Positions 5,302-55,379 of a DNA stretch of 64,000 bases are shown here, piece by piece. The position numbers and the translations under genes were made by a program. This DNA comes from Streptomyces sp. TN58 (GTDB taxonomy: Bacteria > Actinomycetota > Actinomycetes > Streptomycetales > Streptomycetaceae): positions 3,566,501 through 3,630,500 of the forward strand of contig NZ_CP018870.1 in NCBI RefSeq assembly GCF_001941845.1, read 5' to 3'. Position 1 is the first letter of the stretch. The number at the start of each line of letters is the position of its first letter. The notes under the pieces were generated by a model. The model was not told the DNA's origin and ran no database searches. It saw only the letters and a list, made by a program, of their open reading frames with translations.

Positions 5302-5324
5302 GCTCACAGAAAGCACCACACCCC

Positions 5325-7427
5325 ATGAAGCCCCTGGAGTCCGGAGACCCGATCCGACTGGGTCCGTACCGCGTCCTCGCCGTCCTCGGCGAAGGAGGCA
5401 TGGGCAAGGTCTACGCCGGCCAGGACGGCGAGGGGCAGACCGCCGCGGTGAAGGTGCTGCACCCCCACCTGGCGCACGACGAGAACCTCAGCCGGCGCTT
5501 CGTCCGCGAGGCCCGGATGGCCCAGGCGGTCGGCGGCGCGTCCGTGGCCCGCGTACTGGACGCCCAGACCGAGGGCGGGCGGCCGTGGATCGCCACCGAG
5601 TACCTGACCGGGCCGACCCTCGCGGACGCCGTACGCGCCCACGGGCCGCTCGACGAGCCGGCCGTACGGGCCCTGGCGGCGGCGCTCGCCGGGGCGCTGC
5701 GCGACATCCACGCCGCCGGCCTCGTCCACCGGGACCTCAAGCCCGCCAACATCGTGCTCACCGCGACGGGCCCCCGCGTCATCGACTTCGGCATCGCCCG
5801 CCCCGAGCACGGCCTCACCCTCACCACCACCGGCCAGGTCCCCGTCACCCCGGGGTACGGCGCGCCCGAGCAGGTCGTCGGGCAGCGCGTCGGACCGCCG
5901 GCCGACGTCTTCTCCCTGGGTGCCGTCCTGGTGTACGCGGCGAGCGGGGGCCACGCCTACGAGGGTTCGCACGTCGCCGCCGTGCAGTACGAGGTGGTGC
6001 ACGGCGAGCCGCGCCTGGACCGCGTACCGCCCGCGCTGCGGCCGCTGATCGGCCCGTGCCTCGCCAAGGACCCGGCGTCGCGGCCGCTGCCCGACCAGAT
6101 CGCCTGGTCGGCCGCCCCGCCCCGCGGAGCCGAACGCGCCTGGCGGCGCGGAGCGATCGCGCGGGACATCACCTCCCTGGAGCACGGCCTGTCCCGGCTG
6201 ACGACCCTGCCCGGCGGGGCCGCACCGCGCCCGCTCTCCCGGCGCCGTCTGCTGACGGGTCTCGCGGCCGGCGGGTCCGTGCTCGCGGTCGGCGGGGGCG
6301 GCGCGGCCTGGTGGGCCCTGGCGAACCGTTCCGGCGGCGGCCCCTTCGACATTCCCCCGGCCGTGCCGACGCCGCAGGGCAAGGTCTTCGACACGAAGAA
6401 GGGCGACTACGTCCTGGGGGAGACTCCCGCACCGCTGTGGAGCGTCCCGGCGGCCGTCGCGGCCGACACGCCCGCGCCCCTGCCCGTACGGGACGTGGTC
6501 GTCGTCGCCGCGCCGGAAGGCGGGATCGCCGCGCGCAGCGTCGTCGACGGGTCACTGCGGTGGACGGCGGCGAAGGCGGTGGCGGCCAGCCGCTACCTGT
6601 CCCTCTCCGACCGGCTGGTGGCCGCCACCGACGGCGACGGCACCCTCGTGACGTTCGTCGCCTCGACCGGGAAGCCCAAGTGGACGGCTGCCGCCGATGC
6701 CGCGTGGCTCCTCGCCGCGGACGACGAGGCCGTCTACCTGGTGACCAAGGACCGGCGCGTGCGCAGTGTCGGCCGATCCGATGCCAGGATCCGCTGGACC
6801 GTCGGCGTCGGCGCGGACCTCGGCACGGGGGCCGCCTCGCGCGGCCTCGCGGCCCAGGGCCGGCTCGTCGTGACGGCGGCCGACGGAAGCGTGCTCGCCC
6901 TCGACACGGCCGACGGCCGCACGGTGTGGGACCGCCGCGGGCAGTCCGCCGACGGCCGGGCCAAGGTCGCCGTGTCGGGCCGCACTCTGTGCGTGACCGG
7001 AAAGAAACTCACCGCCGTCGACGTCGTCGACGGCAAGGAGCTCTGGTCGGCCGAGAACCCCCAGCCGAAGGACGGGACACCGGTCTTCTGGGGCCCGCCG
7101 ACCATCCACGGCGAGCACGTGTACGCGAGCGTGCTGACCGTCCCCCTGCGCTTGGACCTGCGCACCGGCCGGGGAACGGACTGGTCCTTCCAGGGCCTGT
7201 TCGAGTGCGACCCGCCCAGCCCGCTGGTCGTACAGGGCAACGGGCTGTGGTCCGTCACCGTGAACAGGACGGAGGGCGGCATCAACGTTGTCGACCTCTC
7301 GCCCGAAGGCCGGACGACGTGGGTCTTCCGCGTCGTCAAGAACCCCGACCGGTACTGGATCACGGGCGACGCGAACCGTGTGTTCCTCCTCGACGGCACG
7401 ACGCTCGCCGCCCTGCCCGTCTTCTGA
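5325..7427 (+). CDS. Membrane-anchored Ser/Thr protein kinase with PQQ-like beta-propeller (paralogue)
   Basis: The product has 700 residues from ATG 5325, which starts MKPLESGDPIRLGPYRV; the frame is open further upstream but only as a shadow of the previous gene. The kinase core is intact: GEGGMG glycine loop, Lys43 in AAVKVLHPHL, HRDLKPAN near 137, DFGIAR near 155 and a GYGAPEQ activation segment with adjacent threonines. A transmembrane helix follows SRRRLLTG near residue 307. The C-terminal half carries PQQ-like repeats (LDTADGRTVWDR, VDVVDGKELW). It lies 23 bases after the preceding kinase and is likely in the same operon. The two propellers differ enough to sense different ligands. Confidence 0.92.
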   Translation: MKPLESGDPIRLGPYRVLAVLGEGGMGKVYAGQDGEGQTAAVKVLHPHLAHDENLSRRFVREARMAQAVGGASVARVLDAQTEGGRPWIATEYLTGPTLADAVRAHGPLDEPAVRALAAALAGALRDIHAAGLVHRDLKPANIVLTATGPRVIDFGIARPEHGLTLTTTGQVPVTPGYGAPEQVVGQRVGPPADVFSLGAVLVYAASGGHAYEGSHVAAVQYEVVHGEPRLDRVPPALRPLIGPCLAKDPASRPLPDQIAWSAAPPRGAERAWRRGAIARDITSLEHGLSRLTTLPGGAAPRPLSRRRLLTGLAAGGSVLAVGGGGAAWWALANRSGGGPFDIPPAVPTPQGKVFDTKKGDYVLGETPAPLWSVPAAVAADTPAPLPVRDVVVVAAPEGGIAARSVVDGSLRWTAAKAVAASRYLSLSDRLVAATDGDGTLVTFVASTGKPKWTAAADAAWLLAADDEAVYLVTKDRRVRSVGRSDARIRWTVGVGADLGTGAASRGLAAQGRLVVTAADGSVLALDTADGRTVWDRRGQSADGRAKVAVSGRTLCVTGKKLTAVDVVDGKELWSAENPQPKDGTPVFWGPPTIHGEHVYASVLTVPLRLDLRTGRGTDWSFQGLFECDPPSPLVVQGNGLWSVTVNRTEGGINVVDLSPEGRTTWVFRVVKNPDRYWITGDANRVFLLDGTTLAALPVF

Positions 7428-7473
7428 GCCGCCAGGCGGCACCCGGTGGCGGGCAGTACCCCGTCGTCCCCCG

Positions 7474-8145
7474 TCAGACCCGGAAGGGCGGCTGCGGCCA
7501 GCGGTGCGGGCGGTGCGGCGCCCACCACCACAGCTCGCCGACGCCGACCAGGAGGGACTCCGCCGCCAGGTCGGCCCGCACACCGGGGTCGACCGCGCCG
7601 GCGGTCGGGTCCGCCCGGACCGCCTCCACCCCGGCGAGGTAGGCCGGTTCGTCGATCACGATCCGGTTCAGCACACCGGAGCGGTGGTCGCGGACCTCCA
7701 GGAAGCCGGGGCCGTTGCGGACGAGGCACTTGCCGAGGAAGAAGCCCTCCGCCCAGGCCGCGCGGAGCTCCGCCGCGTCGGCCGGCCCCTCGATCCCGGA
7801 CGGCGGGTAGAGATGGCCGAGCGTGAACGCCGACGGGCCGGACCGGCACGACCCCGCGTCGGGCAGCCGCACGCGCCAGTCGACGACGACGCCCCAGGCG
7901 GTCAGCTCCCGGATCAGGTCCAGGAGCCGTACGGCGCAGACCGGCTCGGCCGCGGGAGACAGGTCCACCAGGGTGCTGAACTCGGCCCTGCGCACCCCCG
8001 TTCGGTACAGCTCGCGGGCGGTGTGCGCGGCGTCCGCGCAGGCGTCGGCGACGGCGACGCTGCCGAGGTGCATGCCCGGAAGCGTCCGCGCGTGGTCGCG
8101 GTAGTCCCGCCACAGGTCGATCACCGGCTTGCGGGCGGGGATCAC
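7474..8145 (-). CDS. DUF5825-like protein, partner of the radical SAM methyltransferase
   Basis: The protein has 223 residues, no signal peptide and no membrane segment. The C-terminus is rich in Trp, His and Pro (WWWAPHRPHRWPQPPF). It resembles the DUF5825 proteins found next to RiPP-maturation radical SAM C-methyltransferases in actinomycetes. Its ATG overlaps the stop of that methyltransferase gene (ATGA, 8142-8145), so the two are translationally coupled. The role is unknown; a substrate-recognition or partner function in peptide maturation is an inference from the pairing. It converges with the kinase gene that ends at 7427. Confidence 0.6.
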   Translation of the reverse strand: MIPARKPVIDLWRDYRDHARTLPGMHLGSVAVADACADAAHTARELYRTGVRRAEFSTLVDLSPAAEPVCAVRLLDLIRELTAWGVVVDWRVRLPDAGSCRSGPSAFTLGHLYPPSGIEGPADAAELRAAWAEGFFLGKCLVRNGPGFLEVRDHRSGVLNRIVIDEPAYLAGVEAVRADPTAGAVDPGVRADLAAESLLVGVGELWWWAPHRPHRWPQPPFRV

Positions 8146-43528: not shown

Positions 43529-44119
43529 TCACACGCGCGCGAGTCGTAGGGTGATGTGGCGGAGATCGATAGTCGCCTCCTTGGCAAGGAGGCGATGCCG
43601 AAGCATCTCGCCTTCGCTGAGGCGTGTTCCCTGCGGGGAGGCAACGACGATGAGCGGCTCGGCTCCACCATCTACGCGGGTGTTTATCCCCGCCCAAACG
43701 AGATCTGCAAGGTCGGCCGCCGGCCCCCAGATCATCAAGACTTTGGACTCGGGCCCGTGAACAAGACAACGGTTGGGCTTGACTTCCACTGTTTCGGGGT
43801 CGGCCAGCCACTCAGGCCCGATGGCCTGGTGCGCGATCTGCTCCATCCCGGGGTAGCGGCTGACCGCGAACTGCGCATACGGGCCAAGGCCATAGCGGGC
43901 CCGAGGCAACTCCTTGATCGGTCCGTCCTTGACCCATACGCGGACCCGGTCGCGTGCAATGAAGCGCGTGAGCTTGCCACCGATGAGCGGATCATCGATG
44001 CAACGGGCGTACCAATCCGACCGTGCGCGGGTGGTCATACCGTCCCAGTCGAGGTCATCGACCTGCCGATAGACCTCGGCGATCACCTCGCGACGGATCC
44101 CCTCGTCGATGTTACTCAT
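43529..44119 (-). CDS. Unrecognised 196-residue protein, third gene of the GHKL-helicase operon
   Basis: From ATG 44119 (MSNIDEGIRREVIAEVYRQV) the product is soluble with no clear catalytic motif. It has a WDGMTTRARSDWYARCIDD segment, a middle Arg/Lys-rich strand (RFIARDRVRVWVKDG) and a C-terminal HRLLAKEATIDLRHITLRL. It starts seven bases after the stop of the helicase gene on the same strand and so belongs to the operon 48197-43529. A specificity or regulatory subunit of the putative defence complex is one possibility. Confidence 0.72.
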   Translation of the reverse strand: MSNIDEGIRREVIAEVYRQVDDLDWDGMTTRARSDWYARCIDDPLIGGKLTRFIARDRVRVWVKDGPIKELPRARYGLGPYAQFAVSRYPGMEQIAHQAIGPEWLADPETVEVKPNRCLVHGPESKVLMIWGPAADLADLVWAGINTRVDGGAEPLIVVASPQGTRLSEGEMLRHRLLAKEATIDLRHITLRLARV

Positions 44120-44126
44120 CGCTGCA

Positions 44127-45800
44127 TCATCCCCCAAAGGCGGCCGGGTCCGGAAACTGGAGGCGGCTCTCCTCCAATGAAGTCTCCAGGCTGGCCGCAT
44201 CCTTGATCCACTCGCGCATCAGGCTCTCCGCGCGCCGGTCAGAGAAGTCGAAGCTCGTACCGCGCTCTGCCAGGCGCAAGATCTCAACCTCGTCGTCGGC
44301 AATCTGTTGACGGATGTTCAAGATAGCGGCGACGCGCCGGATGTCGCTGACGAAGTCCAACACCTCCACGTGCGACTTACCAGGGCGCAGCCGGAGACCG
44401 CGGCCCAGTTGTTGGACGAAGATGCGACGGCTATGCGTGACCCGGGCGAAGCAAAGAATGTTCACGTCCGGGATGTCGACCCCCTCGTTGAGGATGTCGA
44501 CGGCAGTCAGGATCGGCGTCTTACCGCTACGGAAGCTCATCAGTCGGGCTTGCCGCTCTCGCTTGTTCAGGCCCGCGTGCACAGCAAGCGCGCCGCGCCA
44601 CTGTGGCACCTCCGTCAGTAGCGCCGCCATTCGTTCGGAGTGCTCGATGGTGCGGCAGAAGACGACCGCACGGGGTTGTTGTGTGCGCGCCCAGACTTCC
44701 ATCAGCTGATCACGCACTCCTTCGTCCCTCTCGGGGAGGAAGAGACGGGCGTTCAGGTCCTTGATCGAGTAGCTGTGGTCGCTGACGCCACGGACGAAGT
44801 CCCAGTCGATGTTGTCCGCGTAGAGCCGGTATCGGACCTCGGATAGATAGCCCAGCCGCATGCCTTCCTCGATGCCGAGCGTGTAGCTGGGTTCGCCGAA
44901 GCGCGTGCGGATGTCGAAACGGTCACCACGCCAGGGGGTGGCTGTAACCCCAAACTGCCGACTGGCGTGGAGCATGTCGAGAAGCTCCGCCAGTTGCCCG
45001 TCCTCGGCAACGTGGTGGGCTTCGTCGACCATGACCAGTGCGGGCCGGTAGCCGGCGCGGGCATAGCTGAGAGCACTGGCTGTGGTCGCGCAGGTGACTC
45101 CGCGCAGGTCGTCAGGACGGTGATCTCCGGTCAGTAGCTGCGTGCGCACTGTTTTGGGAAGGTGGTGCCACAGTGCCCGTTCAAGTTGCTCCACGAGGTC
45201 CTTGGCCGGGGCGACGACCAGAACCTTGTCCTGAGGGCGTTCGCCCAGGTGGTAGTTGATGGCCTCGCCACCGACCACCGTCTTGCCCAGGCCGGTGGCC
45301 AGTACCAGCAGGGCCCGGTCGGCACCGCCCAGGTCGCTGATGATCGCCCCCAATGCCTCGTTCTGATAAGGGCGCAGTGATCGGGGCGGTAGTCGGTCTG
45401 CGGTGAACTGATCATCCGCGTACAGGTCGGCCAGTTCCTGGCCCGACCACAGCTCTACTCGCATTCCGACCGCCGCCAGGCTGTCGCGGCGCTTGCGGGT
45501 GAGGGGCCCGAACCGGCTGTTCGTGACTACAACGGCGTGATCGGCCCCGTAGTGGGCTTTGGCCTCCAGGACCTCGTCGATGGCGCTGGGCGGCACCGCC
45601 GCCCCCGCCTTCCATTTGGCCTGGAACACCCACAGACGCCCCTCGCGGGTTGCGAGGATGTCGCCTCCCTGATCGTTCGCACCATCGATGTTGGCGACGT
45701 CGGTGAAGCCCAGGTGGAGTGCTAGCCGCTCCACCTGACGCGTAAAGCCGAACGGTCCCACCTCGCGCAGGAAGTCCGGAGCCGTGAACGAGGTGGTCAT
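44127..45800 (-). CDS. Mrr-type nuclease fused to a DEAD/DEAH (SF2) helicase
   Basis: The product has 557 residues. The N-terminal domain (about 1-130) is an Mrr-like restriction-endonuclease fold with GGDILA (Asp47) and VFQAKWK (Gln60, Lys62), the D-QxK active site. An SF2 helicase follows: Q-motif-like LRPYQNEALG, Walker A ATGLGKT at 168-174, DEAH at 259-262, TATPWRGD, then motifs in AVVFCRTIEHSERM and QQLGRGLRLRPGKS. It should translocate along and cleave DNA. The gene begins three bases after the stop of the GHKL ATPase and is translationally linked to it. Confidence 0.9.
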   Translation of the reverse strand: MTTSFTAPDFLREVGPFGFTRQVERLALHLGFTDVANIDGANDQGGDILATREGRLWVFQAKWKAGAAVPPSAIDEVLEAKAHYGADHAVVVTNSRFGPLTRKRRDSLAAVGMRVELWSGQELADLYADDQFTADRLPPRSLRPYQNEALGAIISDLGGADRALLVLATGLGKTVVGGEAINYHLGERPQDKVLVVAPAKDLVEQLERALWHHLPKTVRTQLLTGDHRPDDLRGVTCATTASALSYARAGYRPALVMVDEAHHVAEDGQLAELLDMLHASRQFGVTATPWRGDRFDIRTRFGEPSYTLGIEEGMRLGYLSEVRYRLYADNIDWDFVRGVSDHSYSIKDLNARLFLPERDEGVRDQLMEVWARTQQPRAVVFCRTIEHSERMAALLTEVPQWRGALAVHAGLNKRERQARLMSFRSGKTPILTAVDILNEGVDIPDVNILCFARVTHSRRIFVQQLGRGLRLRPGKSHVEVLDFVSDIRRVAAILNIRQQIADDEVEILRLAERGTSFDFSDRRAESLMREWIKDAASLETSLEESRLQFPDPAAFGG

Positions 45801-45803
45801 CTC

Positions 45804-48197
45804 TCACACCGTCCCGGCGACGCTCTGGTCGAGCATGTCGAAGGTGATCCTCGCCAGGGACAGTTCCAGCCGAGTCTTCCCGCCCGGCTCGGTAAGGAAC
45901 TCGCTGACGACCTCGAGGGGCCGCACGGTTTGCGCCACCTGCCGGTCTTTGACGGCATTGTCCGACCAGCCGTTCCAGGACGTCTTGAACACCGCTCCGT
46001 CAAGGAAGCTAGCCGGGCGCGCTCGGACGACCGCCGCGATGCCGGCGGCGTCCAAGTGAGTCACGAAAGCTCCGTCTTTGACCACGGTAGGCCAGTCCAA
46101 AGATGCGTCGGACCGCCCGGCGTCACGCTCCGCGCGCAGCCTGACGGCCTCCGGCAGGGCCTCCCAAAGCTCTTCGGCCATCGGCGCAACGATGGGGCCC
46201 ATCAGTTCGCGCACCCGGCCAAGCAGTGAGTCAGCCCGGTCGCGCAGCGCTGATTCGGTGACCCTCTGGTCGGGGAATTGCCGGGTGACCTCGGCCGCGA
46301 CCGCCGTGACCTTCTGTCCGTCCGGCTCAAAGGCGTGCAGAGTCTGGGCGATCTCCATCAGCGCGTAATCCCGGGGGTCCCGTCCGTACTCACGGAACAC
46401 CGGGTGCTCGCCGTGCACGAACACCTCCAGGTTCACTCCCTTACCCATGCGCGCGAGTGAGGGGACCTGCCGCTCGCGGTCGTCCAACAGTGGTGTGCGT
46501 GTGTCGAAGACCCTCACGACTTTGCGGCCCAGTCGAGGCAGCGTCACCTCACCCGTCAGATCGAAGACCTGACGGGAGTCGGCCCGATAGCGGTCGAAGC
46601 GCTGCTCTTCGGTTTCCACCGGCTCGGGCTCGGGTGCGGGGGCGAGAGTGGGCGGCGTCGCTCCCAGGTCCGGGCCGTTGGTTGAGCCGCCGCCCAGGGG
46701 GGTAAGCCCAGTGCGCCCGGTAAGCGAGGGGCTACCGGCGCCGGTAGGCCGCAGGGCGGCTTCGCCACCGTTTCGGGCCTCGTCGTGGGCCAGGACCGCT
46801 TGGTACCAGATCTCGTCCGAAAGGAACTCGGGGTGCTGGCCCGAGTGGAACTTCGTGCCCCACTCCCTGGCCGTGTCGTGGATGGCCGTGCTTCCGTTGC
46901 CAGGAATCAGGCAGCCAGCACCTGGGCGGTTTTCCTGATAGCCCTTGAAGATCTCTCCGAGGGGCGAGGTGTTCGCTGGGTACCCCGCGAGCTTGGCCTT
47001 CTTCGGCCGCATCGGGCCCTCGCCGCGCAGAGCGACGACAGCGTGCCGCCAGTCGCGACTCTCCCGGTTGAAGTCCATCTTCTGATAGCCCACCGGAACG
47101 TGGTCGAGGTGGATCTCGCCCACGATGCGCCCCTGAGTGGCAGGGATGTCCACCGGGTACTCCGGGATCTGGGTCCCGTCGTTCGGGTTCTCCCAGGAAA
47201 ACAGCGAGCGATCCCCGATTCGGATCTTCCTTCCGTTGCGCAGGAAGTCGATTCCGTAGTCGCTCTCGTCTAGGTAGCGCTGAACCCCGAACCAACCGTG
47301 GATACGGCGCTCACGCAACTGCATGTCGTCGCCGTCGCACTCTGCGCACCGGTCCAAGGCAAGATCAGGACTCTGCCAGTGGCCGCACTTCATACAGGCC
47401 AGCGCCGACGCGAGCGGAATGTCCACCGACCTGATGGCGGCAATCTCCCGCCCTTCCTTGGTCACCGTTCGCGAGGCAGACCAAACGCAGGGCAGTCGGG
47501 GCGAGACTGTCTTCCCGTTCACCTTCAGCCTAAAGCCGCGGCCAGCCATCGGGCCATCTGGAACGCCGGGCACCGGATTCTCGCCGCGCAGCAGGTAGGA
47601 GTAGACCCGACCGAGGTCGGCACGGACCGAGGCATGTCGGTTGGCCTTCTTCAGATCCTCAGCGATCTCGGTGCGCAACCGACGGACTATCACCTCGGTA
47701 CCGTGCTCGGAGATGTCTTGCTTGGGCTCCCGCCGCAGAGGCGTCCTGAAGCTGTCGTTCCGTGCGAGGCGGCGCAGATCAATCTCTACGACCAACCAGT
47801 CCGGGTCGCCCGCCCGTGTGGTCCGGACCTCAGTGTGGTGCCCCAGGCGGGCCGTGGCGATGTTGAAGCCCATGCCGAACAGCCCCAGACTGCCGTACCG
47901 TCGCTTGCCGCTGTAGCCGGCCTTCAGCGCGCTCTGCAGCGTCTCCAGGCTCATGCCCCGCCCGTTGTCGAGAAGGCCCACGATCGGATCGTCATCGCTG
48001 GGCTTCGGCAAGGTGATCCAGACCTCCTGCGCCTCGCTGCGGTCCGGGTCTGTCAGGAAGTCATCGAAGGAGTTGTCGATCAGCTCTGCCAGACACTGCC
48101 ATGGCTTGTAGGGGATGTCGCCCAGCGCCTCCAGTAGCTGTGGAGAAGGCGTGAGGTCGATCTCCTCGGACAGAACCTGTGCGGCGTCGGTCGACAA
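45804..48197 (-). CDS. MORC/MutL-like GHKL ATPase with zinc ribbon, defence-associated
   Basis: The product has about 797 residues from TTG 48197 (GGGAG seven bases upstream); the frame stays open to 48464, with ATG 48266 lacking a ribosome site. The GHKL fold shows the N-box ELIDNSFDDF at 38-47, DNGRGM at 77-82 and GLFGMGFN at 105-112. A CxxC...CxxC zinc ribbon (CMKCGHW ... CAECDGDD) lies in the middle, and a Pro-rich linker precedes a helical C-terminus. MORC/MutL-like ATPases of this kind occur in restriction-modification-like operons with helicases and nucleases, as here. It probably clamps DNA in an ATP-dependent way. Confidence 0.87.
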   Translation of the reverse strand: MSTDAAQVLSEEIDLTPSPQLLEALGDIPYKPWQCLAELIDNSFDDFLTDPDRSEAQEVWITLPKPSDDDPIVGLLDNGRGMSLETLQSALKAGYSGKRRYGSLGLFGMGFNIATARLGHHTEVRTTRAGDPDWLVVEIDLRRLARNDSFRTPLRREPKQDISEHGTEVIVRRLRTEIAEDLKKANRHASVRADLGRVYSYLLRGENPVPGVPDGPMAGRGFRLKVNGKTVSPRLPCVWSASRTVTKEGREIAAIRSVDIPLASALACMKCGHWQSPDLALDRCAECDGDDMQLRERRIHGWFGVQRYLDESDYGIDFLRNGRKIRIGDRSLFSWENPNDGTQIPEYPVDIPATQGRIVGEIHLDHVPVGYQKMDFNRESRDWRHAVVALRGEGPMRPKKAKLAGYPANTSPLGEIFKGYQENRPGAGCLIPGNGSTAIHDTAREWGTKFHSGQHPEFLSDEIWYQAVLAHDEARNGGEAALRPTGAGSPSLTGRTGLTPLGGGSTNGPDLGATPPTLAPAPEPEPVETEEQRFDRYRADSRQVFDLTGEVTLPRLGRKVVRVFDTRTPLLDDRERQVPSLARMGKGVNLEVFVHGEHPVFREYGRDPRDYALMEIAQTLHAFEPDGQKVTAVAAEVTRQFPDQRVTESALRDRADSLLGRVRELMGPIVAPMAEELWEALPEAVRLRAERDAGRSDASLDWPTVVKDGAFVTHLDAAGIAAVVRARPASFLDGAVFKTSWNGWSDNAVKDRQVAQTVRPLEVVSEFLTEPGGKTRLELSLARITFDMLDQSVAGTV

Positions 48198-48511
48198 AGT
48201 GCTACTCCCATCTGAAGTGTTGCTGGAGGACACCAGTTCATCCAGCTCTACCAAGAGATACCGCATGGCGCTGACACCAGGGCCAAGTCCTGCTGAAGGC
48301 ATCGGTTTAGGCGAGGTCTCTGACCGCGCGCTCTGGGATGAGTCAAGGAGAAAGGGCTGTCTGCCGGACACCAAGAGCGGCCCAGTCCACTCACGCGGCG
48401 CACGCGACGTCGGCCTCCCGAACCACGAACCCGCGTAGGTTCCCTGTGCTGTGTGGGCAACCACCCGTACGACTCATTGCACCTGGGTCGGCCCCGGGGT
48501 GAGCTGTTGCC
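48198..48511. promoter_or_regulatory. Divergent region between the GHKL operon and a hypothetical gene
   Basis: These 314 bases lie between the preferred start of the GHKL gene and the plus-strand gene at 48512, and should hold both promoters. Part of the left side may be coding if the GHKL gene starts earlier (48266 or 48464). The stretch 48290-48350 is less GC-rich. I see no operator repeats. Confidence 0.4.
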
Positions 48512-49933
48512 ATGCATCGCTGGTCTCCCCTGAACGAACGACAGCTCGCCCTGCTCGGCCGGCTCGCGAACGGCAATGAGTCCGAGGAGCCCTGGGACCC
48601 CGGCGAGTTCCGCACCGCCTACGCGCTGCCCGACAGAGGGCTGGTGACGATCAAGCGCAGCGGGAGTGAGGTGGATGCCAAGGTCACCGAGGCAGGCACC
48701 TTCTACATCCAGCATGGCCACCACCCGGACGACCCCGCGCACGCCGAGGAAAAGAAGACCGCAAGGGGGAAGGCGGCGGGTGGCACACGCTCCGCGTCCT
48801 ACGCCGACAGGCCAGTGGCACTCGCCCGTCGGACCAAGGCGAAGGAGCTCATCGAGCGACTCGTTAGGGACAGGCGGGTCACCTTCACCGCGCCCGACGA
48901 CGCCACGGTGACGGAGTGGCGACGCGTGATCGACTACGCGAAGCGCCACAGCCTCGTCCCTGAGAGCAAGCGCATCGAAAGTCTCCGCATGTGGAATCGC
49001 GACCTGCAGATCTCTCTGATTGAGGGACCACACCCCAACTCACTGCGCCAGAGGCCGGATGAGGCGCCACCGGTCCACGTACCCACTCAGTTGCGCTCTC
49101 CGCAGCCGGTCGTGGCCTCACTGAGAGACGACGAGGGCCGACTCGTCATGCCCGCCCCACTGCGCCGCCGATCGTTGCTGCTCCTCCAGGGCCTCGCGGC
49201 CGAGGCAGTACGTCGAGGGCACAAGGTGAAGGAACATGAAGTCCCCTCCCGCCGGCGCAGTCGCGCCTACACCACGTACGACGGGCGGCACCACCCCTCC
49301 AGCTACTCCCTCCGTGAGGGCGAACTGGACTTGGTCGTGGACGGCTTCACCTACACCGTCACGATCCAGCAGGAGTCTCCCCAGTCCACCGACCCGGAGC
49401 GCTCGAAGAGCCTTGTGATCGAACTCGGCTACAGCCGATCCAGCCGGCAGTCCCGCTGGGCCGATCGCAAGCGCTGGGTGCTGGAGGACATCCTGGGAGC
49501 AGTGCTCCGGGAGATCGAGACCCGCGCCGTAGAGGACGCCCAGCGGAAGGTGGACGAGGAGCGGGCGAAGGCCGAGCGCGAGGTCCGCTGGCGGGCGGCC
49601 ATGGAGAAGGCGAAGGACCTGGCCGCGCAGGAACAGTATGCCGAGGTACTCCGCGCACAGGCCGGCCACTGGCAGGAAGCGACAAGCCTGAGCGCGTACT
49701 GCAACGCCCTGGAGCGTCGGCTGGAAGAGGCGGCCGGGGAAGACGAGGCGGCGGTGGCCTCAGCACGAGGGTGGCTAGCCTGGGCACGCCGTTACGTTCA
49801 GAGCCTCGACCCACTGACCCGTCTACCCGGCATGCCCTCCGCTCGCGAACCGAAGCCCGAGGAGCTGGCACCCTACCTGAACGGCTGGAGCCCACACGGC
49901 CCCGAAGCTCACCGCGGATGGGGCGCTCGCTGA
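48512..49933 (+). CDS. Conserved Streptomyces hypothetical protein (often labelled PE-PGRS family)
   Basis: The product has 473 residues, beginning MHRWSPLNERQLALLGRLAN with a winged-helix-like N-terminus (ALPDRGLVTIKRSG). A basic linker (EEKKTARGKAAGG) follows, then a domain with ARRTKAKELIERLVRDR and VTEWRRVIDYAKRHSLVP, and a C-terminal coiled coil rich in Glu, Arg and Ala (about 350-440) that ends in a folded tail. Similar proteins are widespread in Streptomyces near mobile or defence DNA; the PE-PGRS label they often carry is misleading. Function is unknown. It is monocistronic here, between two defence modules. Confidence 0.82.
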   Translation: MHRWSPLNERQLALLGRLANGNESEEPWDPGEFRTAYALPDRGLVTIKRSGSEVDAKVTEAGTFYIQHGHHPDDPAHAEEKKTARGKAAGGTRSASYADRPVALARRTKAKELIERLVRDRRVTFTAPDDATVTEWRRVIDYAKRHSLVPESKRIESLRMWNRDLQISLIEGPHPNSLRQRPDEAPPVHVPTQLRSPQPVVASLRDDEGRLVMPAPLRRRSLLLLQGLAAEAVRRGHKVKEHEVPSRRRSRAYTTYDGRHHPSSYSLREGELDLVVDGFTYTVTIQQESPQSTDPERSKSLVIELGYSRSSRQSRWADRKRWVLEDILGAVLREIETRAVEDAQRKVDEERAKAEREVRWRAAMEKAKDLAAQEQYAEVLRAQAGHWQEATSLSAYCNALERRLEEAAGEDEAAVASARGWLAWARRYVQSLDPLTRLPGMPSAREPKPEELAPYLNGWSPHGPEAHRGWGAR

Positions 49934-50034
49934 GGAGAGAGCGTCATCCACGAGCAAGGGCTCGCGAGCCGGACGCGCGCTTCCTTCTGCGAGGTCGGCG
50001 CGGCAGGGGCCCAGTCGCTCTTACAGCAAGGCTG

Positions 50035-51612
50035 CTACGCCCCATAGAACTCGGGGGTGCTATCCCACACCCTCGTGCCGCAGTAGTACCGGGTTGCACT
50101 CGGGTACTCGACACCTCGCTCCCGATACATCACGACGTACCCCGATAGCGCACTGACCTGCCACTCCGCCCCCAGCGCTGCAGCCAACAGGCGGAACGCC
50201 TTATCTGCGGAAATGGCACCCTCGGGCACCTCCACCGAGACAGTTTCAATCTCACGGCCCTGATAAGCGAACCTGAAAAGATAGGGAAGCTTCCCCTTGA
50301 CTAAGGTTGCGAACTCAAGCACCGCCATCCGCCCACTTGGGCCATCATTTCGAATCACCCAGTCGAGGTTGATCGGGTGCTGCGCGTCAAAGTGCTGAAA
50401 CTTGAGCGCCGTACGGTCACGATTACGTCCAGGATCCGAGTTGCCGAACCCGTTCATATGCCAAGGGATTTCCTCCCCTTGGTCACGCAATCGATTAACG
50501 AGCAGGCGTGCAGGATTCACCACAGATAGGTCATCCTCTACATACAGCCGCGCGAAGGACATCTCGTTCACATCTATGTTGAGGCGTCCGCTGATTTTCA
50601 CCATCTGCCCCTGAAGCCGCTGCCTCAATGAGCGGTCGGACTGCCCCACATAGACAATCGCGCCTTCATTTCGCGCCTGACGTCGATACAGCTGATAGAT
50701 CCCGGGGGAGTCATCGAGGGTGGCCAGGTTCTCCAGCGTGAGATCAACTGGATCCTGCTTTTCCATGAGCCGAATCAACAACTCTTCGGCTTCCGGGGTG
50801 ATCAGCCTGACCGTGAGATCGCCAGCGCGCTCCGCCGTGTGCCCAGGGGGACGAAACGCCGTGTTTCGGGTGAAGGTGTACAGGTCGACAGTGTCCGTAC
50901 CACGTCGATTCGGCTCCGGAAGGCCCCGCGATTGAATCAGCAGTCGAAGTTCGCGGTAGATGTCGCCCAACGTAAGTGCCGAAGGGCCGTCGTGAATCCC
51001 CTCGCGCACAACGTCCAGGAACGCACGGGTGAACGAGGTTGGAACGGTGATCTGCTCAGCCAGCGGTACGACGTGCGCGGCAGCGTCTGCAGCAGTCAAC
51101 GTGTAAGCGCCGCTCACGGCGGTGACATCCGCAAAGTGGCTGTCACCGCCGGCCGACAACCCCTGGATGACGCGACCGGAATAGCAGCAGTCCAGAATGA
51201 CGATTTTTACTTGCGCTGGGCTCCCCATCACAATATGCCGGACTTTAGAATACTCCAGACCGGTCAGATCCGGATCACGCAAATCCGTACCCTGGACTGC
51301 AAGACAAACATCGCCTAGATCGGAGATTACGCCGTGCCCCACGAAGTAGACCAATAGCGTATCGCTGGTCTGCTCGGCGATCCGGCGAAGTTTCTGCGCA
51401 AGCATCGCAGCGTTCTCAGGGTTTTCAATGATGGTTACGCGATCCTCTGACCACCCGCAAAGTTCAGGGTCGGTCAGTACGTCAAACATGCCGCGCACAC
51501 TATTGAGTGCGGCCGGGACCTCAGGAAAGGCGGTGTCTCGATAACTCGAGACACCTATGAGCACCGCATGCGATTCACCATGACTGATATCCTCAGTCTC
51601 CACGGGCGCCAT
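50035..51612 (-). CDS. Caspase-like protease fused to a catalytically defective Eco29kI-type GIY-YIG domain
   Basis: The product has 525 residues. Residues 1-250 are a caspase/metacaspase p20 domain (HAVLIGVSSYRD, catalytic His93 in YFVGHG, Cys143 in DCCYSG). Residues about 285-525 are homologous to the intact Eco29kI-like enzyme at 52321-53160: GIYQLY (Tyr306), YVGQ (Tyr321), Arg332, NGFGN (Asn387) and GRNRDRTALKFQHFD. Two active-site positions have changed: Gln336 replaces the His four residues after the Arg, and Ala368 replaces the metal-binding Glu. So the protease looks active and the nuclease dead. It overlaps the EACC1 gene by 20 bases. Confidence 0.92.
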   Translation of the reverse strand: MAPVETEDISHGESHAVLIGVSSYRDTAFPEVPAALNSVRGMFDVLTDPELCGWSEDRVTIIENPENAAMLAQKLRRIAEQTSDTLLVYFVGHGVISDLGDVCLAVQGTDLRDPDLTGLEYSKVRHIVMGSPAQVKIVILDCCYSGRVIQGLSAGGDSHFADVTAVSGAYTLTAADAAAHVVPLAEQITVPTSFTRAFLDVVREGIHDGPSALTLGDIYRELRLLIQSRGLPEPNRRGTDTVDLYTFTRNTAFRPPGHTAERAGDLTVRLITPEAEELLIRLMEKQDPVDLTLENLATLDDSPGIYQLYRRQARNEGAIVYVGQSDRSLRQRLQGQMVKISGRLNIDVNEMSFARLYVEDDLSVVNPARLLVNRLRDQGEEIPWHMNGFGNSDPGRNRDRTALKFQHFDAQHPINLDWVIRNDGPSGRMAVLEFATLVKGKLPYLFRFAYQGREIETVSVEVPEGAISADKAFRLLAAALGAEWQVSALSGYVVMYRERGVEYPSATRYYCGTRVWDSTPEFYGA

Positions 51613-51952
51613 CCATGAAACGCTTGATCAGCTCCTCCGCCTCGTCCGCACTACTGGCCTCAATCTCCAGCGTTCGGTCCGCCCGCGTAATCGTGATCCG
51701 CAGTTTCGGGTCACTGCGACGGCTCTGCAGCCAGGTCGCCACGGAGCTGGCAAGCACAGTGGCGATCCCGCCAGACCCCAGCGCCACGGAAACCACTTCG
51801 AACGCACCGCCCAGCTGTCCAGGCTCCGGATTGCTCCGCACCTGCTGAACTCGGCCCTGCAGGCGACGCTCACCCCGAAGCCATTCAGACAGCCCGATGA
51901 GGTCGTCGACGGTCTTTGACGACTGCAGCCTGAGTTCTACGTTCACGTCCAC
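51593..51952 (-). CDS. EACC1-like adaptor (effector-associated constant component)
   Basis: From GTG 51952 the product is about 119 residues: VNVELRLQSSKTVDDLIGLS, then ERRLQGRVQQV, the hydrophobic GGAFEVVSVALGSGGIATVL segment and WLQSRRSDPKLRITITRAD. This matches the EACC1 proteins that sit beside caspase-like and other effectors in actinobacterial NTP-dependent conflict systems. The central hydrophobic helix may insert in a membrane or mediate assembly. Its 3' end overlaps the caspase gene by 20 bases, so the two are co-translated. GTG 51946 is an alternative start with better ribosome-site spacing; an upstream ATG at 52048 would add 32 unlike residues. Confidence 0.82.
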   Translation of the reverse strand: MDVNVELRLQSSKTVDDLIGLSEWLRGERRLQGRVQQVRSNPEPGQLGGAFEVVSVALGSGGIATVLASSVATWLQSRRSDPKLRITITRADRTLEIEASSADEAEELIKRFMDGARGD

Positions 51953-52057
51953 ACAGCCCCCATCTGTCCCCTTGCCGCATGGCCACCGGCCATGCAGAGG
52001 ATCCACCATACGATCACCCCAGGAGAAGGACGCATCCTCGGGTGACACCCGCAGGTC

Positions 52058-52246
52058 TCACAGCGTGCCGTTCTCCACAAGATCTCGAATCGCGTCAGCC
52101 TTGCGGCGGACGACGATTCGCCCATCTCCGTCGCTGTAGATGAGGACAGCGGCACCTGGAGACAGGCCAGCCTCCGCGAGCAGCCCCAAGGGGATCTCGA
52201 CAGTGCCAACGTCCGTCACGACAGCCTCAGCAGGTTCCCTGATCAC
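52058..52246 (-). CDS. AbrB/MazE-type (SpoVT-AbrB) small DNA-binding protein
   Basis: The 62-residue protein fits a swapped-hairpin AbrB domain: TDVGTVEIPLGLLAEAGLSP followed by GAAVLIYSDGDGRIVVRRK and a C-terminal tail ADAIRDLVENG. Such proteins are antitoxins or local transcription regulators. It lies upstream of the EACC1-caspase pair on the same strand and may control its expression. No toxin gene of the MazF or VapC type is adjacent, which argues for a regulator of the caspase module rather than a classic toxin-antitoxin pair. Confidence 0.75.
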   Translation of the reverse strand: MIREPAEAVVTDVGTVEIPLGLLAEAGLSPGAAVLIYSDGDGRIVVRRKADAIRDLVENGTL

Positions 52247-52320
52247 GCCGCTAGTGTGTCACCTCGCGCCACGCCGGTAGCGAGCTGCCACCTGAAGGCG
52301 GCGCGAGGTTCCTTGCCCGA

Positions 52321-53160
52321 TCAGTCGCCGAAGATCGGCTGATCCACTTCGACGTCTCCAGCGGGCTCAGCCTCCGGCACGGCACCAATCTGCTGGCCGG
52401 CGCGGTAGTACCGCCATGCGCTCTTGTACTCGTTCCGGCTGTCGTCGTACATGATTACGTAGCCCATGAGGGCAGTGACCTGCCACTTGGTCGGTATTTC
52501 CGCGGAGATCAGTTGGAAGAGCTCGTCGGCGGTCATCCCCGCCGCCGGCACATGGATGCGTCGAGTCTTGAACTCTGCCGACTTTCCGTACCTGAAGTTG
52601 TACGGGAGGTCAGCCTTGATCGTTTCCAGGAGTGAATGCAGCGTCGTCTCGCCGGCCTGCAGGCCCTCGACGGGTCGGTCCAAGTCGATCGGGAACAAGA
52701 CATCGAAGTGGTTCTGCTTCAGGACCGTGCTGTCCCGCTGACGGCCGGGGTCCTTGTTACCGAAGCCGTTGTTGTTCCAGGGGATGTCGCCCTGGCCCTT
52801 GTGGTGACTGATGAGCAGCCGTTCCGGGGCGAGGGCCGAGAAGTCTTCCGCCACGTACAGGCATGAGAAGGCCATCTCGGCCAGGGAGATGTTGCGGCGC
52901 CCCGAGATCTTGCGGAGGTGGTTGTGGAGGCGGGTCGGCAGGGACTTCTCGGCCTTGCCGACATAGACGAACTCGCCGTTCAGGTACAGCTGGTAGACCC
53001 CGGGCTTCTCCTTGAGCCGCGCGATGTTCTCCTCGGCGAGGGGAGCCCTGTCGAGTCCCTTGAGTGCAGCGGCCAGCTGGTCGCCGAGCGCCTTGGTGAT
53101 GCTCAGGGTGAAGTCCTTGTGGTACTGCGTCCCGTCGTCGGAGCCCACCACCGGCGCCAT
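52321..53160 (-). CDS. Type II restriction endonuclease, Eco29kI family (GIY-YIG; predicted CCGCGG)
   Basis: From ATG 53160 (AAGGGAG eight bases upstream) the product is 279 residues. The GIY-YIG centre is complete: Tyr56 (GVYQLY), Tyr66 (YVGKA), Arg77, His81, Glu113 (APERLL) and the NNNGFGNKDPG loop with Asn131, corresponding to the catalytic set described for Eco29kI. That enzyme cuts CCGCGG; the specificity here is inferred from family. It is divergent from a C5 methyltransferase, the expected partner. The C-terminal half (TKWQVTALMGYVIMY) is shared with the caspase fusion, showing the two GIY-YIG regions are paralogues. Confidence 0.88.
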   Translation of the reverse strand: MAPVVGSDDGTQYHKDFTLSITKALGDQLAAALKGLDRAPLAEENIARLKEKPGVYQLYLNGEFVYVGKAEKSLPTRLHNHLRKISGRRNISLAEMAFSCLYVAEDFSALAPERLLISHHKGQGDIPWNNNGFGNKDPGRQRDSTVLKQNHFDVLFPIDLDRPVEGLQAGETTLHSLLETIKADLPYNFRYGKSAEFKTRRIHVPAAGMTADELFQLISAEIPTKWQVTALMGYVIMYDDSRNEYKSAWRYYRAGQQIGAVPEAEPAGDVEVDQPIFGD

Positions 53161-53243
53161 CCGTCCCACTCCCTTGGTCGACATGATCTCGGAAACCCTA
53201 TCTGCGACCTGTACACGTGGCCGAACCTTCACCTCGAAATGGC

Positions 53244-53271
53244 TTGGAGATCTACAACTCCGCGGTATGCT
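53244..53271 (+). promoter_or_regulatory. Probable promoter of the C5 methyltransferase, containing a CCGCGG site
   Basis: TTGGAG (53244-53249) and TATGCT (53266-53271) are separated by 16 bases, and ATG follows six bases after the -10 box, so the message would be leaderless. There is no ribosome site before this ATG. CCGCGG at 53260-53265 abuts the -10 box; it is the sequence predicted to be methylated by the enzyme encoded downstream, so methylation could feed back on transcription. Box assignment is by eye. Confidence 0.5.
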
Positions 53272-53277
53272 TTTGAA

Positions 53278-54594
53278 ATGGCTGAACTGCAAGAAGGATC
53301 AAAGAAGGACCGCACGGGCGTCGAACTCTTCGCTGGCGCTGGCGGTCTGGCCATGGCCGTCCACCGTGCTGGATTCCGCCCCCTGCTCTTCAATGAGTTC
53401 GCCAAGCGGGCGTGCGAGACCCTGGAGACCAACGGGGCTCAGCGACTGCCCGACGGCCAGAAGCCGACCCATGTCCCCGGGCCCGACGAGAAGGTTCCCC
53501 TCGTCGCGGGCGATGTCCAAAAACTCGACATGGACTACCTGGCGGGCCAGGTAGACGTGCTCGCCGGCGGTCCTCCCTGCCAGCCGTTCAGCCTCGGCGG
53601 CGTCGCCAAGGGTGACGAGGACAAGCGGAACATGTTCCCGCAGATGTTCAAGGCCGTCCGGCAGATCCAGCCGAAGGCCGTGATCTGCGAGAACGTGCGC
53701 GGCCTGCTCAGGCCCTCGTTCCGCCGCTACTTCGACTACATCCAGCGCGAGCTGGAGCTGCCCTTCGAGGAACGAGCCGAAGGCACTGACTGGGAGCAGC
53801 ACTACGAGTACCTGCTGGAGCGCCGCGAGAAGGAGTTGGACGACCCCAGGAAGCGGTACGACATCGTCATGATGCCGGTGAACGCGGCCGACTACGGGGT
53901 CCCGCAGATTCGCAATCGCGTGATCATCGTCGCCTTTCGTCGCGACCTGAACGTCGACCTCGAGCTCTTCAAGGACCTCGTGAGGCCGACACACTCCGAG
54001 ACCGCCCTCTTCCGATCCATGGAGGACGGGAGCTACTGGGAGCGACACTCGAACGTCCCCAGTCACGTGCGCGAGTGGGTCATGGCCCGCCTCCCGAAGA
54101 CCATGCCGATGGACGACGGCCTGCTCCCCTGGCACACCCTGCGTGACGCGATCGCCGGCATCGGCGACAACAAGCCACTGCCAGAGGTGCCGGACGAGTG
54201 GCTGGACCGCACCGAGCACTTCCTCGGCGGGTTCACGGAACACATCGGCTGGCCCGGTGCCCGCATCTATGACGGGCACACCCCCAACGAACTCGACCGC
54301 CCGGCGAAGACCGTCAAGGCCGGCGTGCACGGCGTGCCCGGCGGCGAGTCGGTCATGCTCCTGGACGAGCTGGTGGCCGACAAGGCTGCTCAGGGCGGCG
54401 TCCGTTACAAGTACCGGTACATGACGGTCCGCGAAACCGCTCGCGTCATGACCTTCCCCGACACGTGGGAGCTCAAGGGCCCACGGGGGGAGAAGATGCG
54501 CCAGCTCGGCAACGCCGTACCCGTTGCCCTTGGCGAGGTCTTCGCCAAGGCGGTCGCCGCCGTCCTGGACGAGGCGGAGGAGCGCCAGAAGTGA
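53278..54594 (+). CDS. DNA C5-cytosine methyltransferase, partner of the Eco29kI-type endonuclease
   Basis: The product has 438 residues from ATG 53278. Motif I is GVELFAGAGGLAMAVHRAG, motif IV is GGPPCQPFSLGG with nucleophile Cys101, motif VI is ICENVRGLL, motif VIII is YGVPQIRNRVIIV and motif X is MRQLGNAVPVALGEVFAKAV. Between VIII and IX sits a target-recognition region of about 150 residues. It should protect CCGCGG sites from the divergent endonuclease. Its stop overlaps the Vsr start (TGATG), so the two are translated together. Confidence 0.92.
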   Translation: MAELQEGSKKDRTGVELFAGAGGLAMAVHRAGFRPLLFNEFAKRACETLETNGAQRLPDGQKPTHVPGPDEKVPLVAGDVQKLDMDYLAGQVDVLAGGPPCQPFSLGGVAKGDEDKRNMFPQMFKAVRQIQPKAVICENVRGLLRPSFRRYFDYIQRELELPFEERAEGTDWEQHYEYLLERREKELDDPRKRYDIVMMPVNAADYGVPQIRNRVIIVAFRRDLNVDLELFKDLVRPTHSETALFRSMEDGSYWERHSNVPSHVREWVMARLPKTMPMDDGLLPWHTLRDAIAGIGDNKPLPEVPDEWLDRTEHFLGGFTEHIGWPGARIYDGHTPNELDRPAKTVKAGVHGVPGGESVMLLDELVADKAAQGGVRYKYRYMTVRETARVMTFPDTWELKGPRGEKMRQLGNAVPVALGEVFAKAVAAVLDEAEERQK

Positions 54595-55379
54595 TGGCGC
54601 CCGCCAACAGAGCGCAGAGCGGCTGGAAGCACGACCCGCCGCCGGACCGGGCATGGAAGGGGCGGCCCGGCAGGGCACGCTCCGCCATCGCCGCTGAGCA
54701 GGACCGGGCAGCCGGCGGCCGTCACAGACGATCCGTGGACCTCGGCGAAGGGCGGTTCGCCCGGGCCTCCGTGGAGCTGAAGGTACTGCCCGACACACGA
54801 CGCATTCGCGCGTACCTGCGCTGGTCCGACGGCGGTAAGTCACCGGCCCGCTACCTCGGACAAGTCGAGCACGAGACCCGTGCCGCGAACCTCACCGAAG
54901 GCTGGAAGATGGCCTGGGAGAAGGGCCTTCTCACCGAGGAACCACCGGCTGAGGGCTCCTGGGCCTCCTCGCCGTCGGTACGCGCGGTGATGCGGGCCAA
55001 TCGGAGCAAGGACACCCGTCCTGAGCTGAGGCTCCGGTCCCTGTTGCACAAGCAGGGGCTCCGCTATCGCGTGGCAGCACGCCCGCTGCCCGACCTGCGG
55101 CGAACCGCCGACCTGATCTTCCCCAAACCGAAGATCGCAGTCTTCGTCGACGGTTGCTACTGGCACGGGTGCCCGGAGCACCTTCGGGAGTCGCACAAGA
55201 ACGCCGAGTTCTGGCGCAGCAAGATCGAGGGCAACCGCGCCCGCGACGCCGAGACCGACCGCCTGCTCGGTGAAGCGGGGTGGACCGTCGTCCGCGTCTG
55301 GGAACACGAAGATCCGGTGGATGCCTGCGCTCGGATCGAGGGCATTGTGCGACAGGCGTCAAGGGACACGACCGGTTAA
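54594..55379 (+). CDS. Vsr-type mismatch endonuclease with an N-terminal extension
   Basis: The product has 261 residues from ATG 54594 (GTG 54591 immediately precedes it in frame). The Vsr core begins near 128: SVRAVMRANRSKDTRPELRL, then RRTADLIFPKPKIAVFVDGC with Asp173, YWHGCPEH with His191, and a C-terminal VVRVWEHED. Vsr enzymes nick T:G mismatches left by deamination of 5-methylcytosine and usually accompany C5 methylases, as here. The first 125 residues, including VELKVLPDTRRIRAYLRWSD and ARYLGQVEHETRAANLTEGW, are not part of standard Vsr and may bind DNA. Confidence 0.88.
   Translation: MAPANRAQSGWKHDPPPDRAWKGRPGRARSAIAAEQDRAAGGRHRRSVDLGEGRFARASVELKVLPDTRRIRAYLRWSDGGKSPARYLGQVEHETRAANLTEGWKMAWEKGLLTEEPPAEGSWASSPSVRAVMRANRSKDTRPELRLRSLLHKQGLRYRVAARPLPDLRRTADLIFPKPKIAVFVDGCYWHGCPEHLRESHKNAEFWRSKIEGNRARDAETDRLLGEAGWTVVRVWEHEDPVDACARIEGIVRQASRDTTG

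Follow-up and report, generated by a model that had tools for sequence, protein, structure and literature searches.

The window analysed here is a stretch of 64,000 nucleotides from Streptomyces sp. TN58 (contig NZ_CP018870.1, positions 3,566,501 to 3,630,500 of the forward strand). At 50035–51612, on the reverse strand, it contains a gene for a 525-residue protein in which profile matches and alignment identify an EACC1-associated caspase fused to a degenerate Eco29kI-like GIY-YIG domain. The caspase p20-like domain covers approximately residues 14–240 (50893–51573, reverse strand; NF047832, 217.5 bits) and includes His93 (codon 51334–51336) and Cys143 (codon 51184–51186). The degenerate GIY-YIG domain together with the C-terminal domain occupies residues 272–521 (50050–50799, reverse strand), as delineated by alignment with a nearby gene product. 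The latter, encoded at 52321–53160 on the same strand, is a stand-alone Eco29kI-like GIY-YIG nuclease of 279 amino acids (PF09517), denoted R below, in which all six catalytic positions are intact. Beyond R, on the forward strand, lies the gene of a C5-cytosine DNA methyltransferase, denoted M (53233–54594; PF00145, E = 3.1e-51), whose homologues start at about residue 16, near 53278.

Residues 14–224 of the fusion match the NCBIfam model caspase_w_EACC1 (NF047832) with 217.5 bits at a cut-off of 140, and Pfam Peptidase_C14 in hmmscan with 29.3 bits at a cut-off of 21.4. Unlike hmmscan of the fusion, a six-frame search of the source genome with PF00656 yielded no caspase matches, and hence the caspase call rests mainly on the NCBIfam model and the His/Cys dyad, which is kept in all seven caspase fusions described below. 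Residues 271–521 are 41% identical to R over 251 columns (E = 3e-61), which excludes chance homology. The score of this domain with RE_Eco29kI (PF09517) is 18 bits, under the cut-off of 30.8; the cut-off is passed by three other caspase fusions, and by a fourth one with its neighbours in the frame. A sequence search of PDB with the fusion gave nothing useful. The structure model of the full-length fusion is weak, with a predicted local distance difference test score (pLDDT) of 69.5 and a predicted template modelling score of 0.46, and was used only for the linker at approximately residues 254–271, which has pLDDT below 50 and may be flexible. Residues 294–336 also weakly match the candidate defence family PDC-S14 of PADLOC (E = 1.2e-4), the match of R being weaker (0.012). 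A sequence-only reading of this DNA had described a caspase p20 domain with His93 and Cys143 joined to an Eco29kI-like domain, the caspase being an effector with an EACC1 partner inside a restriction–modification (R-M) island, and the profile matches and the alignment with R agree with this description.

R itself scores narrowly above the RE_Eco29kI cut-off (31.4 vs 30.8 bits). When R was compared by phmmer with PDB sequences, UvrC alone matched (E = 0.013) and Eco29kI did not; the best PDB match of its AlphaFold2 model (pLDDT 84.3) is R.Eco29kI, 3mx4, with E = 2.2e-7. By the cut-off, the catalytic positions and the predicted fold, R is an Eco29kI-type GIY-YIG restriction nuclease.

The EACC1 gene (51593–52048, reverse strand; PF19953, E = 8e-29, 100.2 bits at a cut-off of 23.6) is directly upstream of the fusion gene and overlaps its start. 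The first GTG is at 52048, and the ATG at 52009 fits the homologues better. The product contains a hydrophobic Gly-rich segment, VVSVALGSGGIATVLASSV, with a 19-residue maximum mean hydropathy of 1.76, which by hydropathy only corresponds to one transmembrane-like helix. The pair is the sole EACC1 locus in the source genome.

The search for relatives with the fused domain covered 392 genomes of the genus, and 26 genomes matched at 27 places. These are 19 stand-alone genes and three caspase fusions (the window being counted in both classes), four fusions with a helix-turn-helix (HTH) coiled-coil protein, and one broken caspase-fusion remnant. Among the 26 genomes, only the source genome holds two matches, one stand-alone and one fused. 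Further, overlapping sets comprised 391 genomes of the order (23 matched), 394 of the family (22 matched), 396 of the phylum (one matched, the source genome itself) and a contig scan of GTDB (11 loci); the two matches of the order search that lie outside the family are both stand-alone. Grouping of the 114 hits by identical C-terminal 200 residues produced 56 copies, a set that leaves out duplicates and the broken or short remnants L026/L100, L061, L062 and L095. It consists of 45 stand-alone copies, seven caspase fusions (the window, L028, L063, L064, L065, L069 from Kibdelosporangium persicum, and L097) and four HTH fusions (L029, L033, L066, L067). The gene models in relatives come from a simple open reading frame (ORF) caller, and the long N-termini of stand-alone L098, L052, L088, L084 and L047, which overlap M, are ORF-start artefacts.

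According to tblastn, the EACC1 gene is directly upstream in all six other caspase-fusion loci, and none of the four HTH-fusion loci has an EACC1 match. Phage records contain no match to the C-terminal half of the fusion, and none of ten pattern matches in viral contigs was confirmed. The fusion matches 44 plasmid records, none over at least 80% of its length; among the 30 plasmid matches listed, 27 are essentially confined to the caspase half and three align with the GIY half, the latter from alpha- and gammaproteobacteria and situated in Vsr-M-R operons. In L026 (868–1896, genome G108), approximately the last 90 residues of a caspase fusion stand in frame with unrelated sequence, transposase-like by eye; this remnant shows that one genome has lost the module. 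In L028 (genome G253), positions 3061–7344, immediately before the EACC1-fusion pair, encode a 1427-residue protein with very weak similarity to nSTAND (E = 0.09).

The active site of Eco29kI is formed by Y49, Y76, R104, H108, E142 and N154 (PMC1952068). Given the alignment and the numbering of that paper, the corresponding positions are Y56, Y66, R77, H81, E113 and N129 in R, and Y306, Y321, R332, Q336, A368 and H385 in the fusion. The window fusion retains Tyr306, Tyr321 and Arg332, and is altered in three positions out of six: His is replaced by Gln336 (codon 50605–50607), Glu by Ala368 (50509–50511) and Asn by His385 (50458–50460), all on the reverse strand. The first two changes, from His81 and Glu113 that are intact in R, had been noticed in the sequence-only reading and are seen in our alignments as well; the third one, at Asn129 of R, comes in addition. 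In Eco29kI, H108F and E142A each show no cleavage and N154L retains about 10% of it, while specific DNA binding persists with weaker dissociation constants, 114, 45 and 50 nM, respectively, vs 16 nM in the wild type (PMC1952068). Since three of the six positions are changed and the Eco29kI mutants behave in this way, the GIY-YIG domain of the window fusion is very probably unable to cut, as had been supposed from the sequence, with the reservation that the His mutant of Eco29kI is H108F and the window has Gln there, so the replacement differs.

In the stand-alone copies, both tyrosines, the arginine, the histidine and the glutamate are kept in 45 copies out of 45, and the asparagine in 44. The eleven fused copies keep 51 of 66 catalytic cells vs 66 of 66 at six other charged conserved positions (Fisher p = 2.5e-5, ignoring the relatedness of the copies); these control positions, K84 (kept in 44 of the 45 stand-alone copies), R88, D137, R142, D143 and R190 (45 of 45 each), were picked by us from the conservation table after seeing it, and the same table has many conserved hydrophobic columns that are altered in fused copies. 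Lineages vary in what they have lost: His, Glu and Asn in the window, Glu in L069, and His in L028. The first Tyr and the His are lost in all four HTH fusions, of which one also lacks the Arg, and another one the second Tyr. The fewest kept/lost changes on the tree are two for His and two for Glu. On the other hand, none of the six catalytic positions is changed in the tight clade of L063, L064, L065 and L097, which speaks against a uniformly dead domain. The YxG glycine and the lysine, invariant in 45 of 45 stand-alone copies, are replaced in these four by YVA or YAA and Arg. Thus, the expectation of a recurrent loss of His and Glu holds in part: each is lost in two of the seven caspase fusions, and four of the seven keep all six residues. 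A uniform loss across the fusions is rejected, as each lineage differs.

In the maximum-likelihood tree, all eleven fused copies form one clade (support 99/93), apart from the 45 stand-alone nucleases. Since the degenerate positions could have driven this grouping, the tree was rebuilt without ten motif columns, and the fused clade persists (99/91). Forcing the window fusion and the window R together costs 85.6 log-likelihood units (approximately unbiased, AU, test p = 3.7e-39). R nests among the stand-alone enzymes, near L041, to which it is 88% identical. The branch of L069 is long (1.69), which makes its membership of the fused clade the least certain. Given the separate fused clade and the AU rejection, the fusion is not a copy of R, and the initial suggestion that its domain is a dead copy of the neighbouring enzyme is rejected. 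By these comparisons, the fused domain belongs to a separate pseudo-nuclease lineage residing on two platforms, EACC1-caspase and HTH-coiled-coil.

The two kinds of copies also differ in their link with methyltransferases. A C5 methyltransferase is located within 2 kb of 44 of the 45 stand-alone copies, the exception, L073, being near a contig end, and none is seen near any of the ten other fused copies, in 15–21 kb around each. None of the six other caspase-fusion genomes (completeness being given for only three of them) has a stand-alone R; the fusion is the sole R-like match at E ≤ 0.001 and the sole PF09517 match in all six. A methyltransferase match (E ≤ 1e-20) is present in one of the six and is partial, 37% identical. 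No second match to the fused domain was found in the four HTH-fusion genomes. The sequence-only reading had proposed that the dead domain senses unmethylated cognate sites; it had asked whether such fusions always sit beside an Eco29kI-type R-M pair, and had counted their regular occurrence without one as a refutation. None of the ten other fused copies sits beside such a pair, and with R and M wanting in the other carriers, sensing of unmethylated sites is rejected as the general function: unless the specificity has changed, such a detector would be permanently triggered in carriers without R-M.

The EACC1 gene and the caspase fusion are situated in an inserted block of approximately 2.15 kb (49912–52059, reverse strand), defined by blastn and G+C content and absent at the same place in L046. 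Its G+C content, 60.2%, is below that of the window (70.3%) and that of R (63.2%). In blastn, positions 48457–49911 and 52060–52263 of the window match 6320–7771 and 7816–8019 of L046, where they are 44 bp apart. The right-hand stretch is also kept in L038, L040 and L041, with homology beginning at 52051–52060. The corresponding blocks of L063, L064, L065 and L097 are 88–92% identical to one another over 2.1–2.3 kb, with mostly different flanks; L063 and L064 share some flanking DNA besides the cassette. We read the EACC1 and caspase-fusion pair as a mobile cassette. R and a small MazE-like gene precede it with the same orientation, and the EACC1 ORF begins 272 bp past R. A weak scan of 49850–53300 called no promoter-like site and a single terminator-like one, inside the fusion gene and not between R and EACC1; chance alone would give 2.3 terminator-like sites. 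Co-transcription of the cassette with R is possible from this arrangement. The common direction and the sole EACC1 locus speak for a local coupling and against pure accident, in a window that was chosen as striking, and it is possible that in the source genome the fusion cooperates with the resident R, in whose operon the cassette lies.

By anatomy, the pair is of the EACC1 kind. The two-gene systems described by Kaur et al. (2020, eLife 9:e52696, PMC7159879) consist of an EACC1 gene on the 5' side, whose product has a hydrophobic segment rich in Gly, and a 3' gene with an N-terminal caspase, whose dyad is intact, and a variable C-terminal domain, with up to 50 alternatives; the same authors stress inactive enzyme copies in conflict systems, as possible decoys. 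The terms "GIY-YIG" and "URI" are absent from the main text of that paper, and a degenerate Eco29kI-like domain was not found among the C-terminal domains named there; nor was a placement in an R-M operon of the same family found described in that text. "GIY-YIG" is likewise absent from PMC8195603 and from the main text of a polymorphic-toxin paper met in the literature search for caspase and GIY-YIG. Overall, in the open-licence literature searched, a degenerate Eco29kI-like C-terminal domain of such a system was not found. With R.Eco29kI and PF09517 the locus shares the fold (that of the stand-alone R), the NGFGN-D-GR-RD region and the active-site Tyr, Tyr and Arg. The differences are that the fusion has its His, Glu and Asn changed, carries a caspase and scores 18 vs 30.8 bits, and that the PF09517 match is followed by additional C-terminal sequence, from approximately residue 160 of R onwards. 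In general terms, restriction-type domains that are inactive have already been described from conflict systems (iREase, PMC10853773).

Three other defence systems are comparable in part. Canu, a phage defence, likewise couples a caspase to a protein of nuclease type, but the nuclease is a separate, catalytically active protein of the metallo-beta-lactamase fold (PMC12799240), whereas here the domain is fused, resembles GIY-YIG only, appears inactive and is accompanied by EACC1. SNIPE holds a GIY-YIG domain at the membrane in phage defence and tells self from non-self by location rather than methylation; however, it requires an active nuclease (E414A abolishes defence), and its main text mentions no caspase (PMC13190303). 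PrrC, also a suicide effector, is tied genetically to type I R-M, but it is silenced by the linked enzyme (PMC2610378), whereas six of the seven caspase-fusion carriers have no such enzyme.

Taken together, these observations suggest, with about even confidence on our side, a mobile EACC1-caspase suicide module in which a restriction nuclease has been turned into a binding-only sensor or decoy. During infection the pseudo-nuclease would engage a ligand, then a membrane-associated EACC1-caspase complex would switch on, and proteolysis would kill or arrest the cell. The preferred ligand would be a factor from the phage side that interacts with restriction enzymes of this class, making the domain an integrated decoy, because neither a resident methyltransferase nor DNA cutting is then needed. 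The next choice would be invading DNA recognised by a cue other than methylation, for example by its place at the membrane during injection; since SNIPE tells phage DNA by location (PMC13190303), a DNA-sensing version would be freed from the need for methylation. In the source genome, where the cassette was inserted downstream of R, an extra coupling to the resident system would be possible and not required.

The decoy variant fits the carriers without R-M, the loss of catalysis and the retention of the rest of the domain. In its full form, which we put forward tentatively and hold to be rather less than probable, an Eco29kI-like lineage lost cutting and became bait on both the EACC1-caspase and the HTH-coiled-coil platform, so that a phage factor directed against such enzymes would spring cell death; here the bait would have entered an operon whose enzyme, from the same family, looks active, and would lie beside the real target. 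Several points weigh against the sensor-or-decoy module as a whole. The phage factor against this enzyme class, the ligand, the trigger and the phenotype are all hypothetical. The four caspase fusions that keep all six catalytic residues might still cut. Kaur et al. prefer to see the variable C-terminal domain as an effector (PMC7159879). A decoy for an enzyme that is absent from the carrier is less compelling than one beside it. Finally, the only carrier found with R is the window, with its sole EACC1 locus, which hints at a coupling beyond the general model.

Among the alternatives, the effector role leads, although we regard it as fairly unlikely. The caspase would cleave its own chain, and the released pseudo-nuclease would coat invading DNA or poison a nuclease as a dominant negative. 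Effector deployment by autoproteolysis was proposed for EACC1 systems by Kaur et al. (PMC7159879), and both the full retention of the charged residues outside the active site (66 of 66) and the possibly flexible linker would suit it. However, no cleavage site was identified in the fusion. We also know of no experiment showing effector release in any EACC1 system.

Two further alternatives draw on the proximity of R and the sole EACC1 locus, and both are improbable. The original model has the dead domain bind the targets of the neighbouring R-M system in their unmethylated state and free the caspase when restriction fails. It agrees with this that the EACC1 ORF follows R at a distance of 272 bp, with the same orientation and with no terminator-like site called between them in the weak scan, as does the retention of site-specific binding by cleavage-dead mutants of Eco29kI (PMC1952068). 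But a sensor of this kind would be always on, unless its specificity has changed, in the six carriers without R, of which one has a weak M match; moreover, the window fusion does not derive from the neighbouring R, and it lacks the His and the Asn, whose mutation weakened the DNA binding of Eco29kI most (PMC1952068). The other of the two, which we judge no more probable, is a guard of the resident enzyme: the pseudo-nuclease would pair with R, and the caspase would fire when a phage inhibitor removes R. PrrC provides a precedent (PMC2610378), and Eco29kI binds DNA cooperatively, with n of about 2 (PMC1952068). Yet constant linkage to a guarded R-M system, as expected from PrrC, is seen in the window and at none of the ten other fused copies, which lack a nearby M and whose genomes show no stand-alone R.

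A caspase-activated nuclease in one chain, with GIY-YIG as a pro-nuclease switched on by the caspase in the way a caspase activates the DNase of Canu in phage defence (PMC12799240), is highly improbable: four of the seven caspase fusions do keep all six catalytic residues, but the window copy lacks three of them, E142A and H108F each abolish cleavage by Eco29kI (the window His being replaced by Gln), and the four active-looking copies lack the YxG glycine and the lysine that are invariant in the 45 nucleases.

The surroundings of the cassette form a restriction island. The MazE/AbrB-like gene between R and EACC1 encodes 62 amino acids (52058–52246, reverse strand; PF04014, E = 5.4e-4, under the family cut-off); its DNA stretch, 52060–52263, is also found near R in L038, L040, L041 and L046 (blastn), and it is possibly a regulator of the R operon. 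The left neighbour of the cassette is a 473-codon gene of unknown function (48512–49933, forward strand), whose 82% identical homologue is beside R-M in L046. Vsr mismatch endonuclease is encoded at 54651–55379 on the forward strand (TIGR00632, 121.6 bits). On the reverse strand, a GHKL-type ATPase (45804–48464; PF13589, E = 3.9e-11) is 86% identical to its homologue in the L101 island, and a protein with Mrr_cat and a DEAD/DEAH helicase (44127–45800; PF04471, PF04851) is 91% identical in L101.

The larger conserved island (window positions 43529–48464 and 52321–55379) thus comprises Vsr, the C5 methyltransferase, the GIY-YIG nuclease, the GHKL ATPase, the Mrr-helicase and a 223-residue protein, and L101, from the same family, has all these genes together. 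On a Ruegeria plasmid (L117), the genes that come after Vsr-M-R encode an ATP-binding protein, a helicase and a hypothetical protein. The ATPase, the helicase and the third protein may be a helper module for this type of R-M. Some islands of the window type encode a second, more typical Eco29kI nuclease (L035 9353–10216, L036 8319–9092, L045 5679–6599, L046 11905–12855), with PF09517 scores of 149–164 bits in L035, L045 and L046, that is, two GIY-YIG nucleases per one methyltransferase and Vsr.

The HTH-coiled-coil part matches 29 of 101 genomes of the genus at E ≤ 1e-5, some of them via the HTH stretch alone. A scan of ten such proteins recognised a C-terminal domain in five, namely a response regulator in three, DnaA in one and HATPase in one, and none in the other five. 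Swapped C-termini occur on this platform (L127 337–2205 and other loci from L123–L150), among them response-regulator receivers and a DnaA ATPase together with the DnaA C-terminal domain. The platform may serve in conflict or regulation by means of copied housekeeping domains.

The finding matters because a lineage of restriction enzymes has here become a recognition module, probably a non-cutting one, that is common to two platforms. The window is a natural test object, since the intact enzyme, its methyltransferase and the caspase with the pseudo-enzyme are all found in a space of 5 kb, and relatives are available for comparison, one having the island without the cassette (L046) and others the cassette without the island (L028, L063–L065, L069, L097). 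It provides a concrete case for asking whether bacteria detect anti-restriction measures by pseudo-enzyme decoys.

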